From Bradyrhizobium guangdongense (GTDB lineage: Bacteria > Pseudomonadota > Alphaproteobacteria > Rhizobiales > Xanthobacteraceae), in assembly GCF_004114975.1 (NCBI RefSeq), contig NZ_CP030051.1:7343501-7407500 (forward strand): 64,000 nt of DNA. Direction: 5' to 3'. Below are positions 3 to 7,071 of this stretch, piece after piece. The notes under the pieces are model-generated. The model did no database searches and was not told the DNA's origin. It worked only from the letters and a program-made list of their open reading frames with translations. The position numbers were made by a program, and so were the translations under genes. Within the stretch, counting starts at the first letter, position 1; every line of letters begins with the position of its first letter.

Positions 3-194
3 GCGGTCGAGACCGTGATGCATGCGATGCGCACTGCGGGCCTGTCCGGCTATCGCAACGACGGCGAGTTCACCATGGGCCGCCACCTGCGCGACGTGTT
101 GTCGTCGCCGATCATGATCAACAACGATCGTATTCTGGCCAATGCCGCCACGTCGACGCTGATGAGCGGTGTGCCGGCGAGCCTTCGTGACTAA
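3..194 (+). CDS. Acyl-CoA dehydrogenase-like protein, C-terminal end (partial)
   Basis: The reading frame is open from the window edge and ends with TAA at 192-194, giving the last 63 residues of a protein that begins outside. The segment holds an arginine/glycine-rich stretch (GRHLRDVLSSPIMINNDRIL) that resembles the C-terminal helix bundle of acyl-CoA dehydrogenases, where the substrate and FAD tail are capped. It ends 39 bp before the amino acid:[carrier protein] ligase in the same direction, so the two are probably co-transcribed. In Bradyrhizobium an acyl-CoA dehydrogenase homologue and a small carrier protein are known to lie beside such ligases, which supports this reading. The fragment alone is too short for a firm family call. 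Confidence 0.55.
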   Translation, partial: AVETVMHAMRTAGLSGYRNDGEFTMGRHLRDVLSSPIMINNDRILANAATSTLMSGVPASLRD

Positions 195-233
195 ACCAAC
201 AAAAAGCAAATTTGAGATAGCAGGACATCGACC

Positions 234-1214
234 ATGAACATTGCCGTCCTCCCGGATTCGCCCGAGACTGCCCCGCAAATCGCCGATCCGCTCGATCATC
301 TCGCCGACAAACTATTCCACCGCATGGGCTCGGACGGCGTCTACGCCCGCACCGCGCTGTATGAAGGTGTGGTGGAGAAGCTCGCCGCGCTGATCACCAG
401 CCATCGCGAATCCGGCACGGAAGCGCTGCGCTTCCCGCCGGTGATGAGCCGGGCCCAGCTGGAAAAGTCCGGCTACCTCAAGAGCTTTCCGAACCTGCTC
501 GGCTGCGTCTGCGGGCTGCACGGCACCGAACGCGAGATCAACGCCGCGGTGAGCCGCTTCGATGCCGGCGGCGACTGGACCACGTCGCTGTCGCCGGCCG
601 ACCTCGTGTTGTCGCCCGCGGCCTGCTATCCCGTCTATCCGATCGCGGCGAGCCGCGGGCCCTTGCCGAAGGGCGGCCTGCGCTTCGACGTCGCCGCCGA
701 CTGCTTCCGCCGCGAGCCGTCGAAGCATCTCGATCGCCTGCAATCGTTCCGGATGCGCGAATATGTCTGCATCGGCACGCCCGACGACGTCGCCGATTTC
801 CGCGAGCGCTGGATGGTGCGCGCGCAGGCGATCGCCCGCGATCTCGGCCTGACCTTCCGGGTCGATTATGCCAGCGATCCCTTCTTCGGCCGCGTCGGCC
901 AGATGAAGGCGGTGAGCCAGAAACAGCAGCAGCTCAAGTTCGAGCTCCTGATCCCGCTGCGCTCCGAAGAGCAGCCGACCGCCTGCATGAGCTTCAACTA
1001 TCACCGCGAGCATTTCGGCACGACCTGGGGCATCCAGGACGCCAATGGCGAGCCTGCTCACACTGGCTGCGTTGCCTTCGGCATGGATCGGCTGGCGGTC
1101 GCGATGTTCCACACCCACGGCACCGATCTCTCCGCCTGGCCCGCCAAGGTGCGGGACATCATGGGCATGCCGCCGCACGTAGCGACTGAGGCCCACGGCG
1201 AAGGCTGGCGCTAG
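234..1214 (+). CDS. Amino acid--[acyl-carrier-protein] ligase (class II aaRS-like, Bll0957 type)
   Basis: This 326-residue protein matches the family of truncated class II seryl-tRNA synthetase homologues that activate a small amino acid (glycine or alanine) with ATP and load it onto the phosphopantetheine arm of a dedicated carrier protein instead of a tRNA. The zinc ligands established for Bll0957 are present at exactly the same numbers: Cys131, Glu176 (in FRMREY) and Cys279 (in HTGCVAFG). The class II motif 2 arginine is seen in CFRREPS (about 157-163) and motif 3 in GMDRLAVAMF (283-292). There is no N-terminal tRNA-binding coiled coil, which explains the inability to charge tRNA. The length equals that of Bll0957. 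It follows an acyl-CoA dehydrogenase-like gene and precedes a GNAT-like gene. Recognition is strong; the amino acid and the product of the pathway cannot be read from sequence. Confidence 0.93.
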   Translation: MNIAVLPDSPETAPQIADPLDHLADKLFHRMGSDGVYARTALYEGVVEKLAALITSHRESGTEALRFPPVMSRAQLEKSGYLKSFPNLLGCVCGLHGTEREINAAVSRFDAGGDWTTSLSPADLVLSPAACYPVYPIAASRGPLPKGGLRFDVAADCFRREPSKHLDRLQSFRMREYVCIGTPDDVADFRERWMVRAQAIARDLGLTFRVDYASDPFFGRVGQMKAVSQKQQQLKFELLIPLRSEEQPTACMSFNYHREHFGTTWGIQDANGEPAHTGCVAFGMDRLAVAMFHTHGTDLSAWPAKVRDIMGMPPHVATEAHGEGWR

Positions 1215-1270
1215 AGCGTGATCCGGAAAGCGTGAAGCTATTTTCCGGATCGATCATGCTGAAACGATAG
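1214..1270. repeat. Rhizobiales-type short palindromic repeat
   Basis: Immediately after the ligase stop codon lies a near-palindrome: a 10-bp arm gatccggaaa at 1220-1229 pairs with tttccggatc at 1242-1251. Variants of this sequence are scattered through intergenic DNA of Rhizobiales genomes. It could form a hairpin in RNA that ends or stabilises the ligase transcript, but no T-run follows, so a terminator role is only a guess. Confidence 0.6.
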
Positions 1271-1308
1271 ACTTCAAGAGGCCGACCATTTCCACGGGCA
1301 AGACGAGC

Positions 1309-2184
1309 GTGATCCACACCAAGGTCCGATGTCGCGAGATCACCGAGTCCGATGTTGACGCCATCGCGGACTTGCTGACGCGCGGCTTCGTCGGCCGATC
1401 GCGCAATTACTGGATCCAGGGCCTGCGCCGGCAGGCCTTCCGGCCCGTGCCGGAGGGCTATCCGCGTTTCGGCTATATGCTCGACAATGACGGCGAACCG
1501 GTCGGCGTGCTGCTGCTGATCTACACCACACGCAAGGATGGGGAGGAGATCGCCATCCAGTGCAATCTGTCGAGCTGGTATGTCGAGCCGGCCTACCGCA
1601 ACTACGCGCCGCTGCTGACCAAGATCGCGCAACGGCACAAGCACGTCACCTATCTCAACATCAGCCCGGCGGTATGGACCTGGCCGATCATCGAGACGCA
1701 GGGCTTTCGCGCCTATTGCCGCGGCCTGTTCTTTTCGGTGCCGGCACTGTCCCGCGCGCCGCGCTGGAGCAAGATCGAAGTCATTTCTCCGCACGCCAAG
1801 CAGATCGAGGGCCTGTCCGAGGCCGAGACCGAGTTGCTGACGCGGCACGCACGCTACAATTGCCTCAGCCTGGTGTGCCGCACGCCGAAAGGCGTCTTCC
1901 CCTTCATCCTGCAACCGGTGCGCATCCGCCGCGGTTTCATCGCGCCGCCGGCGATGCAGCTGATCTACTGCCGCAGCGCCGCCGAATACGCCGCCTGCGC
2001 CGGCCGCATCGGCCGGCTGCTGCTGCGTCTCGGCAAGATCTCGGTGATCGTCGATTCCAACGAACCCATCCCCGGCCTTGTCGGTATTTATACCGAGCGA
2101 CGCGGGCGCAAATATTTCAAGGGCCCGCACCGTCCACGACTGGCTGATCTCACCGATACGGAACTCGTGCTGTACGGGCCATAG
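1309..2184 (+). CDS. GNAT-like acyltransferase next to aa:CP ligase
   Basis: The 291-residue product begins with a fold pattern of GNAT acetyltransferases: a starting strand-helix (REITESDVDAIADLLTRGF, residues 10-28), then a central strand (GEPVGVLLLIY, about 62-72) followed by SSWYVEPAYRNYAPLL (88-103), which sits where the acyl-CoA or acyl-pantetheine pyrophosphate loop would be. The canonical Q/RxxGxG/A loop is not clear, so activity is uncertain. The C-terminal half has no feature I recognise. The start is GTG at 1309; a Shine-Dalgarno-like sequence is weak. It lies 94 bp after the ligase in the same direction with only the repeat between. An attractive inference is that it moves the carrier-bound amino acid to an acceptor, but this is untested. 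Confidence 0.6.
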   Translation: MIHTKVRCREITESDVDAIADLLTRGFVGRSRNYWIQGLRRQAFRPVPEGYPRFGYMLDNDGEPVGVLLLIYTTRKDGEEIAIQCNLSSWYVEPAYRNYAPLLTKIAQRHKHVTYLNISPAVWTWPIIETQGFRAYCRGLFFSVPALSRAPRWSKIEVISPHAKQIEGLSEAETELLTRHARYNCLSLVCRTPKGVFPFILQPVRIRRGFIAPPAMQLIYCRSAAEYAACAGRIGRLLLRLGKISVIVDSNEPIPGLVGIYTERRGRKYFKGPHRPRLADLTDTELVLYGP

Positions 2185-2354
2185 GCGTTCGGCTTCGCTA
2201 TCGCTTTGCGGTCACGCTGTTTGCACGCTCGCTCTGCATCGCCAGTCACTCTCCGTAAACTACGGCGCTTAAGGGAATTTTCCCGCCTCTTCGCTACGCT
2301 CAGCGGCTGAATTACGTTGCGTTAAGTCTATTGCGCCGAGATCCCGCTGATCCC

Positions 2355-5222
2355 ATGACGTCGACCCGCAACAACGAGCTCGGTGCATGCCACGACCAAG
2401 GCCGGCAGGCCCTGCTGTCGCTGAGCCAGCTGGCGCTCGATGGCATGGAACAGGGCGTTTGTGTCTACGACGCCGACAACCGGATCGTGCTGGTCAACAC
2501 GCGCTACCTGACGCTGTTCGACATGTCGGCCGATATCGTCCGGCTCGGGACGAGCTATCGCGAGGTGCTCGCCCATAGCATGGCGCGCGGGAATATCCCC
2601 CGGAGCGAGCTCGATGCGCTCTATGCTTCGCGGATCGCGTTGATCGCGGCCGGCAAGCCGTTCCAGACGCGGCAGACGCTCGCAAGCGGTCTCGTCATCA
2701 CGCTGGAACTGAAGCCGCTTCCCGACGGCGGCTGGATGACGATCTGCGACGACGTCAGCCGTCTCGCCCGCCTCGAAGCCGAGCTGCAACTGCAGACGGA
2801 GCGCAGCCAGCACGCGCTCGCCCACATGTCGCACGGCCTCATCATGTATGACGCCGAGGATCGTGTGGTCGTCTGCAACGAGCGCTTCCTGCAACTCTAC
2901 GATCTCGACCCCGCCGTTTTGAAGCCAGGTATCGCGCATTGCGCGGCGATCGATCATTGGCTGTCGCGCGGCAACCGGGCAGAGATGTCCGGGGACGAGT
3001 TCCGCGATATCAGGACCAACGACATCAGGACAAGAAGCCCGAAGACCATTCTCGTGACGTGCCATGACGGCCGGAAAGTGCAGGCCGTATCGCGCTTCAT
3101 GCCCGACGGCGGCTGGGTCACGGTGCATGAGGATGTCACCGAGCGGCTGCAGCGCGAAGAGATGCTGAAGCAACAGAACCTGATGCTGGATGCCGCGCTC
3201 GAAAACATGGCACATGGCCTCGCTTTCTACGACAGCGACATGCGCCTGCGCATCTGCAATTCCACCTATCAGAAGATCTACCGGCTGTCTCCGGAGGAGA
3301 GCAAGCCCGGCACGCATCTCTCCGAGCTGATCGAGCGCTCCATGGCGAACGGCGCCTTCGCCTCCGAATACAGCCCGCAGCAGATCCTCAAGGCGGCCCG
3401 GGTCCGGATCGAGAACAACGATACCTCCCCCATGCGCCGGCGCATGAGCAACGACACGGTGATCTCGGTGCGCTATTGCGCACTGGCCGAGGGTGGCTTC
3501 GTCGCCACCTATGAAGACATCACCGAGCGCGAGCGCGCGGTCGAGGAACTGAGCGAGCAGTATCGCCGCTTCGACGCGGCGCTGAACAACATGAGCCAGG
3601 GCCTGTGCATGCTCGACACGAGCCTGCACGTGATCGTCTGCAATCGCCGCTACATCGAGATGTACGGCCTGTCACCCGATGTCGTGAAGCCCGGCGTCTC
3701 GATGCGCGAGATCATGGAGCACAGCTGCTCGCTCGGCATCCACCCGAACACGACCGGCGCCAAGCTCTATGCCGACTATGTCGAGCGGCTGCGCGAGGGC
3801 GAGCACACGCTGCACCGCCATTTGAGCGACGGCCGCATCATCAAGCTCAACCACAAGCGCATGGAGCATGGCGGCTGGGTCGTCACCTATGAGGACGTGA
3901 CCGAGCGGCACAAGGCGCAGGCGCGCGTGGCTCACATGGCGCGACACGACTCTCTTACCGACCTGCCCAACCGCACACTGTTCCGCGAGAAGATGGGCGA
4001 GGGGCTGAACCAGGTCGCGATCGCCGGCGGCGCCATGGCCGTGCTGTGCTTCGACCTCGACAATTTCAAAACCGTCAACGACCGGCTCGGCCATGCCGCC
4101 GGCGACCGGCTGCTGCGCTGGGTCGCGGCGCGGTTGAGGGAGAACGTCGGCGAGCACGACACCGTCGCCCGCCTCGGCGGCGACGAGTTCGCCGTGCTCC
4201 AGCGTGGACCACAACCGCAATCGGCGGAAAAGCTCGCGCGGCGCCTGGTCGAGATCATCGGGCATCCCCCGCCGCTGGAAAGCCAGTCCATTCACGTCGG
4301 CGTCTCCGTCGGCATCGCCATCGCGCCCGATCACGGCCTCGATGCCGACGAGCTGATGAAATGCGCCGACCTTGCGCTATACCGGGCCAAGGCCAAGGGG
4401 CGCGGCGCCTATCAGCTGTTCGAGCCGGAGATGGAAGAAGAGGCGCGCAGCCGGCACGCGCTCGAGCAGGATCTGCGCGGCGCGCTGGAATCCAACCAGT
4501 TCCATCTGGTGTTCCAGCCGCAGGTGCGGCTCGACAGCACCGAACTCACCGGCTTCGAGGCGCTGCTGCGCTGGAGACATCCCACGCGCGGCTTCGTCTC
4601 GCCGGCCGAGTTCATTCCGATCGCCGAAGAGAACGGGCTGATCGTTCCGATCGGCGAATGGGTGTTGCGCACCGCCTGCGCCACGGCCGGCTCATGGCCT
4701 GAGGTTACGGTCGCGGTGAACCTGTCGCCGGTCCAGTTCCGCTCGCGCGGACTGGTCGCGATGGTCACGAGCGCGCTGGCCGAGGCCGGCCTGCCGGCGC
4801 AGCGGCTCGAGCTCGAAGTCACCGAGACGGCGCTGCTCGACGACAGCGAAGCGACCATCGGGATCCTGCACCAGCTCCGCGCCCTCGGCGTGCGCGTCAG
4901 CTTGGATGATTTCGGCGTCGGCTATTCCTCGCTGAGCTATTTGCGCAAGTTTCCGTTCGACCGCATCAAGATCGACCGCTCCTTCGTCGGCACGCTCGGC
5001 GAAAGCCCGGAGAGCGTCGCCATCGTCCGCACCATCGCGAGCCTCGGCTCGGTGCTCGGCGTCGAGACCACGGCGGAAGGCGTCGAGACATCGGAGCAGC
5101 TCGACTTCGTGCGTGAATGCGGCTGCACGGCCGTACAGGGGTACTATTTCGGCAAGCCCTGCCCGGCGGCCGAGGTGGGACTTACCATCGCGACGCTGAA
5201 CGCGGTTCGCCGCGTGGCGTGA
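2355..5222 (+). CDS. Four-PAS GGDEF-EAL cyclic-di-GMP signalling protein
   Basis: The protein is 955 residues with no membrane segment. It opens with four tandem PAS domains of the PAS_7 type, each starting with a variant of MxxGLCMYD (first MEQGVCVYD near 31, then HMSHGLIMYD, NMAHGLAFYD, NMSQGLCMLD) and each closing with a TxxEDVTER-like segment. A GGDEF domain follows (HDSLTDLPNRTLF entry; intact GGDEF at 608-612), then an EAL domain with intact EALLRWRHP at 735 and DDFGVGYSSLSYL, KIDRSF and TTAEGVE further on. Both a diguanylate cyclase and a phosphodiesterase activity are therefore possible, gated by cytosolic ligands. ATG at 2355 is preferred to the TTG eight codons upstream. It converges on a second GGDEF/EAL gene. 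Confidence 0.9.
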   Translation: MTSTRNNELGACHDQGRQALLSLSQLALDGMEQGVCVYDADNRIVLVNTRYLTLFDMSADIVRLGTSYREVLAHSMARGNIPRSELDALYASRIALIAAGKPFQTRQTLASGLVITLELKPLPDGGWMTICDDVSRLARLEAELQLQTERSQHALAHMSHGLIMYDAEDRVVVCNERFLQLYDLDPAVLKPGIAHCAAIDHWLSRGNRAEMSGDEFRDIRTNDIRTRSPKTILVTCHDGRKVQAVSRFMPDGGWVTVHEDVTERLQREEMLKQQNLMLDAALENMAHGLAFYDSDMRLRICNSTYQKIYRLSPEESKPGTHLSELIERSMANGAFASEYSPQQILKAARVRIENNDTSPMRRRMSNDTVISVRYCALAEGGFVATYEDITERERAVEELSEQYRRFDAALNNMSQGLCMLDTSLHVIVCNRRYIEMYGLSPDVVKPGVSMREIMEHSCSLGIHPNTTGAKLYADYVERLREGEHTLHRHLSDGRIIKLNHKRMEHGGWVVTYEDVTERHKAQARVAHMARHDSLTDLPNRTLFREKMGEGLNQVAIAGGAMAVLCFDLDNFKTVNDRLGHAAGDRLLRWVAARLRENVGEHDTVARLGGDEFAVLQRGPQPQSAEKLARRLVEIIGHPPPLESQSIHVGVSVGIAIAPDHGLDADELMKCADLALYRAKAKGRGAYQLFEPEMEEEARSRHALEQDLRGALESNQFHLVFQPQVRLDSTELTGFEALLRWRHPTRGFVSPAEFIPIAEENGLIVPIGEWVLRTACATAGSWPEVTVAVNLSPVQFRSRGLVAMVTSALAEAGLPAQRLELEVTETALLDDSEATIGILHQLRALGVRVSLDDFGVGYSSLSYLRKFPFDRIKIDRSFVGTLGESPESVAIVRTIASLGSVLGVETTAEGVETSEQLDFVRECGCTAVQGYYFGKPCPAAEVGLTIATLNAVRRVA

Positions 5223-5242
5223 GCGCCCTGCTCGCGGATCGC

Positions 5243-5268
5243 CGCGAAAACAACCCCATGCACAGTAG
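5243..5268. repeat. 26-bp dispersed repeat, copy 1
   Basis: The 26 bases 5243-5268 are identical to 49304-49329. The core is gcgaaaacaaccccatgcac. Both copies lie in the same orientation, shortly after the stop codon of a plus-strand gene (21 and 16 bp). The sequence has no hairpin. Function unknown. Confidence 0.7.
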
Positions 5269-5334
5269 AAGGGGCGTTGATTTCAAAGGAGAATTTTCGT
5301 GGGCCCGCTTCGCTTTGCCCATCCTGCCCGTATC

Positions 5335-7071
5335 TCAGCTTGCGGCCGGCAGTGCGCTATCCGGCGGCGGGCACCACGGGCGGTCGGCTGACGCCAGCCC
5401 GATCAGGCGGCCCTGGATGTAATCGCAGCCCCAGTCGCGCAGCATGGTGGCGGCCTCCTCGTCCTGCACCCATTCGGCGACGGTCTTGATGTCGAGGCGG
5501 CGGGCGAGATCGATCAAGGTCTGCACAAAGGCGCGATCATCGGCGGAGTGGGTGATGTTCTGCACGAAGGCGCCATCGATCTTGACGATGTCCACGCCGA
5601 GCTTGCGCAAATTGCGGAACGAGGTGTAGCCGGCGCCGAAATCGTCGATGGCAATGCGGCTGCCGAAATTCTTGAGACGGCTGACGAAAGCGCGGACGTC
5701 GTCGATGTCCTGGATCGCGACCGTCTCGGTGATTTCCACGATCAGCCGTTCGGCGACGCCGGGATGGGCGCGCATCAGCGATTCGATTCCGGCCCACCAG
5801 TCCGGGTCCATCGTGGTGTCAGGCGAGATGTTGAGGCTGAGCCGAATGTTCGGCGCGGCTGCGAGCTCGGCGACCACCAGTTCGAGCACACGGTGATCGA
5901 CGAGGCGGATGAGGCCGAGCCGCTCGGCGACCGGCACGATGTCGGGCGCGAGCAACACCTGGCCATCGCCCTGGTCCATCCGCACCAGACATTCGTGGAA
6001 GGCCCCCTCGCGCGTGGCAGCCGACACCACCGGCTCGTAAGCAAGCCTGATGCGGCGTTCGTTGAGCGCCGTGACGATCTCGTCGGTGACGCGGATGTTG
6101 ACCCGGCGCTGGGCGTCGCGCTCGGCGTTCGGTCGCCACGCCGCGAACGAACCGGCGCGGCGGCGCTTGGCGGCATCCAGCGTCTCATGGGCGCGGTTGA
6201 TCGCCTCGTCGGTATTGCGGGCATAGCGCGGCAGGCTGACGGCGCCGATCGAGACGGTGACGGACACCGGACCGGATTTGGTCGGCACCACCTCGTTGCG
6301 GATGCCGGTGAGAAAGCGCTCGGCGGCGACGTTCATGTCGTCGACGGTGCAGTTCTTCAGGATCAGTCCGAACTTGTTGCCGGAGAAACGGCCGAGCACG
6401 TCGCCACCGCGCAGCCGCGCGCGAATGCGCCTGGCGACGTCGAGGATCACCGCGTCGGCAACGTCGAAACCGAAGGCGTCGTTGACGCGGGCGAGATGAT
6501 CGATCCCGACCAGCATGAAGGCCGCGGTCGAGCGGAAGCGGCTCGTCTCCTCGATCGCTTCGGCCAGCGCCGCGATCAGATGAGAGCGGTTGAGCTCGCC
6601 GGTCAGAGGATCGAGCCGGGCCAGCTTCGTCAGTTCCTCGTCGCGGGCATGCCGCTCGTTGTTGATGCGGACCGATCCGATCGCCCGCAACGGGCGGCCG
6701 TCGGGGCCAGCGAACCAGCGGCCGGTCTCTTCAATCCAGACCACGGGATCGGAGGCGCTCATGCGCACACCATATTCGACCCGGTAGGGCGTGCCGTCGG
6801 CGCCGTGCACGGCCGAGGTCTGCGCCAGCGCCGCGCTCCGTAGCATCTGCGCGGGCTCGATCAGCTTGGCGAACTCGGCACCGCTCGCAAGCCGCTCTGC
6901 GGGAATGCCGGGGAAGATGGCGCCGGCCTGCTCGCCCCAGACGATGGCGTCGCTGACGAGATCCCAGACGAACACGGCTTGGCCGAGGGCAGCCAGGATT
7001 TCGGAGGCTTGCGGCAATGCTGGGGTCAAAAGCGCCTCGTTTCGGGACAGCGGGGAGTCCTGAGCTGGCAC
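5335..7071 (-). CDS. GGDEF/EAL protein with degenerate GGDEF and variant EAL
   Basis: This 578-residue soluble protein has an N-terminal PAS-like sensor (about 20-140), a GGDEF-type domain and an EAL-type domain. The GGDEF signature is replaced by SGNKF (in GRFSGNKFGLIL), which lacks the acidic residues needed to make c-di-GMP. In the EAL domain the signature is ECLVR instead of EALLR, so the metal-binding Glu and the Arg survive; N (NISPD), E (EITET), DD (DDFGAGYTSF), K (KIDGAF), the Glu of VAEWV 36 residues later and the Gln of YIQG another 20 residues on are all kept. It may thus be a phosphodiesterase controlled by a dead cyclase domain. It is convergent with the four-PAS protein. Confidence 0.88.
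   Translation of the reverse strand: MPAQDSPLSRNEALLTPALPQASEILAALGQAVFVWDLVSDAIVWGEQAGAIFPGIPAERLASGAEFAKLIEPAQMLRSAALAQTSAVHGADGTPYRVEYGVRMSASDPVVWIEETGRWFAGPDGRPLRAIGSVRINNERHARDEELTKLARLDPLTGELNRSHLIAALAEAIEETSRFRSTAAFMLVGIDHLARVNDAFGFDVADAVILDVARRIRARLRGGDVLGRFSGNKFGLILKNCTVDDMNVAAERFLTGIRNEVVPTKSGPVSVTVSIGAVSLPRYARNTDEAINRAHETLDAAKRRRAGSFAAWRPNAERDAQRRVNIRVTDEIVTALNERRIRLAYEPVVSAATREGAFHECLVRMDQGDGQVLLAPDIVPVAERLGLIRLVDHRVLELVVAELAAAPNIRLSLNISPDTTMDPDWWAGIESLMRAHPGVAERLIVEITETVAIQDIDDVRAFVSRLKNFGSRIAIDDFGAGYTSFRNLRKLGVDIVKIDGAFVQNITHSADDRAFVQTLIDLARRLDIKTVAEWVQDEEAATMLRDWGCDYIQGRLIGLASADRPWCPPPDSALPAAS

Follow-up and report, generated by a model that had tools for sequence, protein, structure and literature searches.

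A predicted tandem-GNAT protein encoded beside a Bll0957-type amino acid:[carrier protein] ligase in Bradyrhizobium, and its linkage to a second carrier-protein module

With which partners does a carrier protein charged by a Bll0957-type ligase work, and to what end? According to a 2022 review, what the charged carrier does is not known (PMC9437257; this and the other papers are cited for the sections available to us). The question is raised by a locus at one end of a 64,000-nucleotide stretch of Bradyrhizobium guangdongense DNA (G000:C1:7343501-7407500, the window hereafter), where genes for a carrier protein (- strand), a flavoprotein (+), the ligase (+) and a GNAT-like protein (+) follow one another. 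L-numbers below denote fetched loci and G-numbers genomes, G000 being that of the window; a window position is the position in locus L002, which contains these four genes, minus 10000. The GNAT gene proves to be a conserved neighbour of the ligase and, this being new here, it also travels with a second module composed of a further carrier and an AMP-forming ligase. That ligase, GNAT and second module serve one pathway is highly probable, being well supported by their linkage and co-occurrence.

The ligase gene (window 234..1214, L002 10234-11214, + strand) encodes a protein of 326 amino acids which matches the NCBIfam model NF005479, 'amino acid--[acyl-carrier-protein] ligase', at 485 bits (cut-off 357) and aligns with the Bll0957 structure (PDB code 3mey) at 735.7 bits across residues 1-326, its full length. 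The seryl-tRNA-synthetase-like catalytic core is present without a tRNA-binding domain, and the zinc ligands Cys131, Glu176 and Cys279 are all kept, just as the preliminary description of this DNA had stated; they are invariant in 11 of 11 aligned rows, the protein itself included. Judged by its sequence, the ligase is the ortholog of Bll0957. The carrier gene that the same description proposed to look for in the flanking DNA was found adjacent, outside the window (L002 8347-8619, - strand) and divergent from the flavoprotein gene. Its product matches PF00550 at 28.4 bits, the cut-off being 20.8, and a carrier-protein match is present in all of the 80 named ligase loci; these loci, like the 52 close loci, 106 ligase loci and 38 tree representatives used below, were ligase-baited or fetched around hits and do not make up an unbiased sample. 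Published work names Gly and Ala as substrates of the Bll0957-type ligase family (PMC5370406). In a Bradyrhizobium diazoefficiens phaR mutant under microaerobic conditions, bll0957 and bll0958 are both raised, as transcript and as protein; bll0958 is annotated there as an acyl-CoA dehydrogenase, and the GNAT gene is absent from that part of the phaR table (PMC10888616). A separate curiosity is L065, from a record titled Frankia sp. RB7, whose ligase is 94% identical to that of the present Bradyrhizobium locus; the assembly is probably mislabelled or contaminated.

Downstream of the ligase lies the GNAT-like gene (window 1309..2184, L002 11309-12184, + strand), which starts with GTG and encodes 291 amino acids. 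Its standing as a conserved neighbour of the ligase in relatives, anticipated in the preliminary description and subjected to a check set in advance, was borne out. Across 195 genomes of the genus, 126 of which hold the 144 ligase places, the GNAT gene follows downstream, in the same orientation and within 6 kb, at 132 or more of these places, GNAT places being those listed (G508 and G529 were counted as GNAT-positive without places). At no fewer than 115 of the 144 the GNAT gene stands beside the ligase with no AMP-ligase within 8 kb, an AMP-ligase being found within that distance at 25. Among the named loci a GNAT match was obtained in 71 of 80, one of them a fragment. L035, with stops in its translated stretch, was left out of set A2. 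The family, represented by 149 genomes, yields full-length ligase matches in 19 (plus three weak partial ones) and GNAT matches in 18, and in all 12 genomes with both the two genes lie within about 4 kb of each other. Seven genomes have a ligase and no GNAT; six have the converse, and in three of these the GNAT is distant (24-28% identity). The association in the family has a Fisher p of 4e-9 by genome; with genera as units, p is 0.06 when the two genes are required in a single genome and 0.006 when any genome of the genus counts.

The second module consists of a carrier with a DSL site (ACP2, for acyl carrier protein), the AMP-forming ligase, a FabG-like reductase of the short-chain dehydrogenase/reductase (SDR) type and an acyl-CoA-synthetase-like protein (FadD6L) that scores above the cut-off of an acyl-CoA-synthetase model. 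In the genome of the window it is located elsewhere, at L140 (G000:C1, about 6.806 Mb), some 0.53 Mb from the ligase/GNAT locus. It is likewise present at the AMP-ligase locus fetched from 11 of 11 other genomes, with an additional GNAT gene at L144; these 12 loci were chosen from AMP-ligase matches away from the ligase. Second cluster copies in Bradyrhizobium, and loci in other genera, have the second module clustered with ligase and GNAT. Gene order differs by genus, ligase and GNAT being adjacent in g1, separated by the SDR, AMP-ligase and ACP2 genes in g28 and on opposite strands in g3. Conversely, G115, G394 and G335 have the GNAT gene beside the second module and no ligase was found in them at the cut-off used. 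Genes for an O-acetylhomoserine-sulfhydrylase-like protein, a homoserine-O-acyltransferase-like protein, a class IV aminotransferase and a thiamine pyrophosphate (TPP) enzyme are frequent in the joint clusters; the sulfhydrylase, aminotransferase and TPP genes have no counterpart in the 64-kb window, the part of this genome that was searched for them. Methionine synthesis was considered as the main purpose of the clusters and rejected, the sulfhydrylase being near only 30, and the homoserine acyltransferase near only 27, of the 106 ligase loci. Among the second cluster copies seen in some Bradyrhizobium (L106-L118), L113, L116 and L117 gave no GNAT match and L109 a fragment.

How closely the pieces keep company was assessed by scoring three markers, ligase, GNAT and AMP-ligase, in the 195 genus genomes using preset E-value cut-offs. 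They are present in 126, 128 and 129 genomes respectively, all three together in 123 and none in 64, which leaves eight mixed genomes: ligase and GNAT in G529, ligase and AMP-ligase in G627, GNAT and AMP-ligase in G508, G554, G670 and G676, ligase only (50% identity) in G517 and AMP-ligase only in G596. GNAT and AMP-ligase thus coincide in 127 genomes, with one having GNAT only and two AMP-ligase only, while GNAT and ligase coincide in 124, with two having ligase only and four GNAT only. Thirty genomes were picked by hand for an rpoB tree, which holds 29 of them, as G547 gave no match to rpoB. On this tree a two-state label, for which G517 was grouped with 'none' and G554, G627 and G676 with 'present', changes eight times compared with a shuffled mean of 10 and a shuffled minimum of five, and several mixed groups are well supported. 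Repeated joint gain or loss of the three markers is likely, though not rigorously shown, since many rpoB nodes are weak despite these well-supported groups.

The wider samples give a similar picture. In the family, AMP-ligase is present in 14 of the 15 genomes with a close GNAT and in none of the 134 others, and hence in none of the seven that have a ligase without GNAT. At class level, 13 of 337 genomes give a GNAT-profile match and 18 a ligase-profile match; eight of these ligase matches are strong, scoring 378 bits or higher, and 10 are weak. L130 (G288) brings together ligase, flavoprotein, carrier, GNAT, second module, TPP enzyme, sulfhydrylase and homoserine acyltransferase, with no aminotransferase match at that locus, and L132, L136 and L137 combine GNAT, ACP2 and AMP-ligase in the absence of a neighbouring ligase. 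In G218 the ligase gene lies on a different contig, beside sulfhydrylase and homoserine acyltransferase genes.

What kind of protein is the putative acyltransferase? No Pfam or NCBIfam family was matched at E<=10 and no PDB sequence at better than E 1.4. Nevertheless, its dN/dS is 0.03-0.06 in six of eight comparisons, the other two giving no value, and on this measure the open reading frame (ORF) is a real gene under purifying selection. The predicted structure (pLDDT 90, pTM 0.86) comprises two GNAT-like halves and has the GNAT fold. Among its closest solved folds are the tandem GNATs Eis, MAB_4324 and N-myristoyltransferase (NMT), whose two-domain fold aligns along almost the whole model, but at roughly 9-15% identity and with no common motif shown. 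The usual CoA pyrophosphate motif of GNATs is Q/R-x-x-G-x-G/A; the corresponding site, as we place it, reads R97-N-Y-A-P-L here and looks degenerate. Some other GNAT-fold families also do without this motif. Distant GNAT relatives from the family search (L045, L046 and L047) adjoin an AMP-ligase-like gene and a pyridoxal phosphate (PLP) decarboxylase gene; the decarboxylase of L046, the sole one tested, matches the exosortase-A-associated model TIGR03099 above its cut-off.

A small nonribosomal pathway had been suggested in the preliminary description, and with a ligase, an adjacent carrier gene and a conserved GNAT neighbour the genes do look like one. Taken as a whole, the data are best explained, tentatively and at a little under an even chance, by a nonribosomal pathway that is dissociated and uses two carriers, the present locus supplying one of its halves. 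In the half present here the class-II-synthetase-like ligase would activate an amino acid (Gly or Ala in published relatives) and load it on the carrier protein, after which the acyl-CoA dehydrogenase (ACAD)-like flavoprotein would probably oxidise the carrier-bound amino acid. In the half at L140 the AMP-forming ligase probably loads ACP2, the SDR reductase and the acyl-CoA-synthetase-like protein being its companions. The tandem GNAT would then transfer the acyl group of ACP2 onto the aminoacyl unit, at its amino group, and so replace a condensation domain. That the donor is an ACP2-borne acyl group and the acceptor the aminoacyl unit may well be right, although we stop just short of calling it probable; transfer from ACP2 is favoured because GNAT tracks AMP-ligase slightly more closely than it does ligase, and because GNAT and AMP-ligase co-occur where no ligase was found. 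More doubtful is the specific proposal that a free-standing tandem GNAT acts as an inter-carrier amide synthase in a pathway made up entirely of separate small proteins encoded at two unlinked loci. If the GNAT did join two carrier-bound units, it would represent a new route to the amide bond in nonribosomal synthesis. In any event the gene set names likely partners of the charged carrier, half of them encoded far away, both in this genome and in most of its genus relatives, and the purpose of such carriers therefore becomes testable.

Several observations weigh against this two-carrier scheme. No GNAT is among the matches listed near 12 of the 144 genus ligase places, none was seen in nine of the 80 named loci nor in nine of 29 same-clade ligase representatives, and L120 and L122 carry both carrier modules without a recognised GNAT. 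The difference between GNAT/AMP-ligase and GNAT/ligase co-occurrence is modest and depends on few genomes, Fisher p values for the genus (1e-42 to 1e-48) ignore relatedness, and the eight label changes on the rpoB tree, with its many weak nodes, lie near the shuffled mean. G114 and G045 have a close GNAT whose gene has neither ligase nor ACP2 in its vicinity, at the cut-off used G045 moreover lacks an AMP-ligase ortholog, and ligase, ACP2 and AMP-ligase are absent from L138 and from seven further class-level loci with distant GNATs (one of these loci being 3 kb). Finally, the resemblance to NMT is one of common fold, not of function.

The GNAT might instead take the amino acid off the charged carrier and give it to an acceptor in the manner of Fem proteins, the acceptor being an amino sugar, a lipid or a small molecule. 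The 115 or more genus places with GNAT beside ligase and AMP-ligase not near speak for such a transfer, as does the use of aminoacyl donors by GNAT-fold Fem and MprF-type ligases, and in 2010 movement of an amino acid to a cell-surface sugar was predicted for another neighbour of this ligase family (PMC2922099). However, G508, G554, G670, G676, G114 and G115 have GNAT and AMP-ligase with no ligase at the cut-offs used, so that in some genomes the GNAT step seemingly does without the charged carrier, and no Fem-type chain is among the best 50 rows of either fold search with the GNAT model, a result which does not exclude one; on balance we regard carrier-to-acceptor transfer as unlikely. Quite unlikely too, in our estimation, is a tailoring role within the pathway, in which the GNAT would depend on acyl-CoA or acetyl-CoA and act on the released product and not between carriers. 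Eis, MAB_4324 and NMT, to which the model is close in fold, use CoA thioesters and an acyl-CoA-synthetase-like gene belongs to the second module, but the tight co-occurrence of GNAT with a dedicated ACP and its AMP-ligase, together with the degenerate look of the CoA pyrophosphate motif, tells against tailoring.

Could the GNAT gene be nothing but a syntenic neighbour, without functional tie to the ligase? Most of the genus loci are closely related and have other flanking genes in common, presumably mtnP- and mtnA-like, and in the window a palindromic element (1218..1251, no strand) parts the ligase and GNAT genes. Yet the family alone offers three gene orders, linkage recurs in other families (L127, L130) and GNAT and ligase are present or absent jointly with an unlinked second module, which makes mere synteny highly improbable.

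Within the two-carrier scheme, the flavoprotein (L002 8977-10194, + strand, only its 3' end falling in the window at 3..194) deserves comment. It has the ACAD fold and domains, and among its fold matches dehydrogenases tie with ColB1, which acts on a carrier, and with DszC, a monooxygenase. A catalytic Glu, conserved and situated in the C-terminal half, is typical of acyl-CoA dehydrogenases. From residue 225 onwards no conserved catalytic Glu was found in the flavoprotein, the best-kept being E341 in eight of 12 aligned rows; His252, His370, Asp373 and Asp384, on the other hand, are kept in all 12. Of the CaeB1/ColB1 flavoproteins (PDB code 7xp7), CaeB1 is thought to dehydrogenate carrier-bound cysteine, for which it needs Glu372 as base (PMC8149447); it differs in this from the present protein, where no such Glu is well kept. 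A plain alpha,beta-dehydrogenase role was rejected, there being no well-kept Glu and glycine having no beta carbon. Were glycyl-carrier the substrate, imine formation or oxygenation by the flavoprotein would be more plausible than desaturation.

A tree of 38 representatives of the 106 ligase loci falls into two clades with support of 100/100. The larger, with 29 rows, has GNAT in 20 and neither GNAT nor DUF1839 in nine; the smaller, with nine rows, has DUF1839 in five and neither in four, and at none of the 106 loci do both occur within 9 kb. Ligases of the DUF1839 clade (L036-L039, L128, L129 and L134) are usually accompanied by a GH2-like gene and an exosortase-type alpha/beta hydrolase, and no GNAT gene is near them in these seven loci. 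DUF1839 has been assigned to the papain-like fold (PMC10318531). A note added in proof in 2010 predicted that Atu2574 forms an amide bond with the amino acid and transfers it to a cell-surface sugar; the neighbourhoods concerned share with ours the ligase family, a carrier, a redox gene and a neighbour proposed as amide-bond former (PMC2922099). From its context, as opposed to its sequence, we infer that Atu2574 is DUF1839, but the gene set which resembles its neighbourhood (DUF1839, glycosidase-like protein and alpha/beta hydrolase) goes with the other ligase clade and not with the GNAT-linked one. The MtRS-paralog nonribosomal operons described in the same paper likewise combine a synthetase paralog, an ACP, an acyl-CoA ligase, an acyl-CoA dehydrogenase and a GNAT, for which an acyl substrate was suggested; their synthetase is, however, class-I-like, a different class from the ligase here, and the pathway is a prediction only (PMC2922099). 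Also close are the Bll0957-type ligases and carriers of Mocibob 2010 and 2013, to which the present locus corresponds in having an orthologous ligase, identical zinc ligands and a carrier gene next to it, but the accounts of them in the available sections of PMC9437257 and PMC5370406 deal with loading only and mention neither the GNAT gene nor the second carrier module. Literature searches turned up no account of the GNAT-linked clade or its neighbourhood, though Mocibob 2010 and 2013 may mention it.

There remain some features of the locus and its surroundings. In L002 the gap between flavoprotein and ligase genes is 39 bp and that between ligase and GNAT genes, which holds the palindrome, is 94 bp; of the 52 close loci, 38 have the latter gap in the bins for 20-59 bp and 13 in those for 80-119 bp. 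No further copy of the palindrome was found in the window (patterns with up to three mismatches) or in the genome (exact ends). Further into the window (2331-7071) are two long ORFs of 963 (+ strand) and 578 (- strand) amino acids which by eye have a PAS/GGDEF/EAL signalling look; no connection between these and the pathway was seen. The genes 3' of the carrier gene on the same strand, which we take from their sequences to be mtnP- and mtnA-like, form a block with it outside the window (L002 6225-8619, with gaps of 106 and 30 bp). A LuxI-like role for the GNAT protein, prompted by these neighbours, was rejected, having no sequence support and a single syntenic context. An mtnP match is near 58 of the 106 ligase loci.
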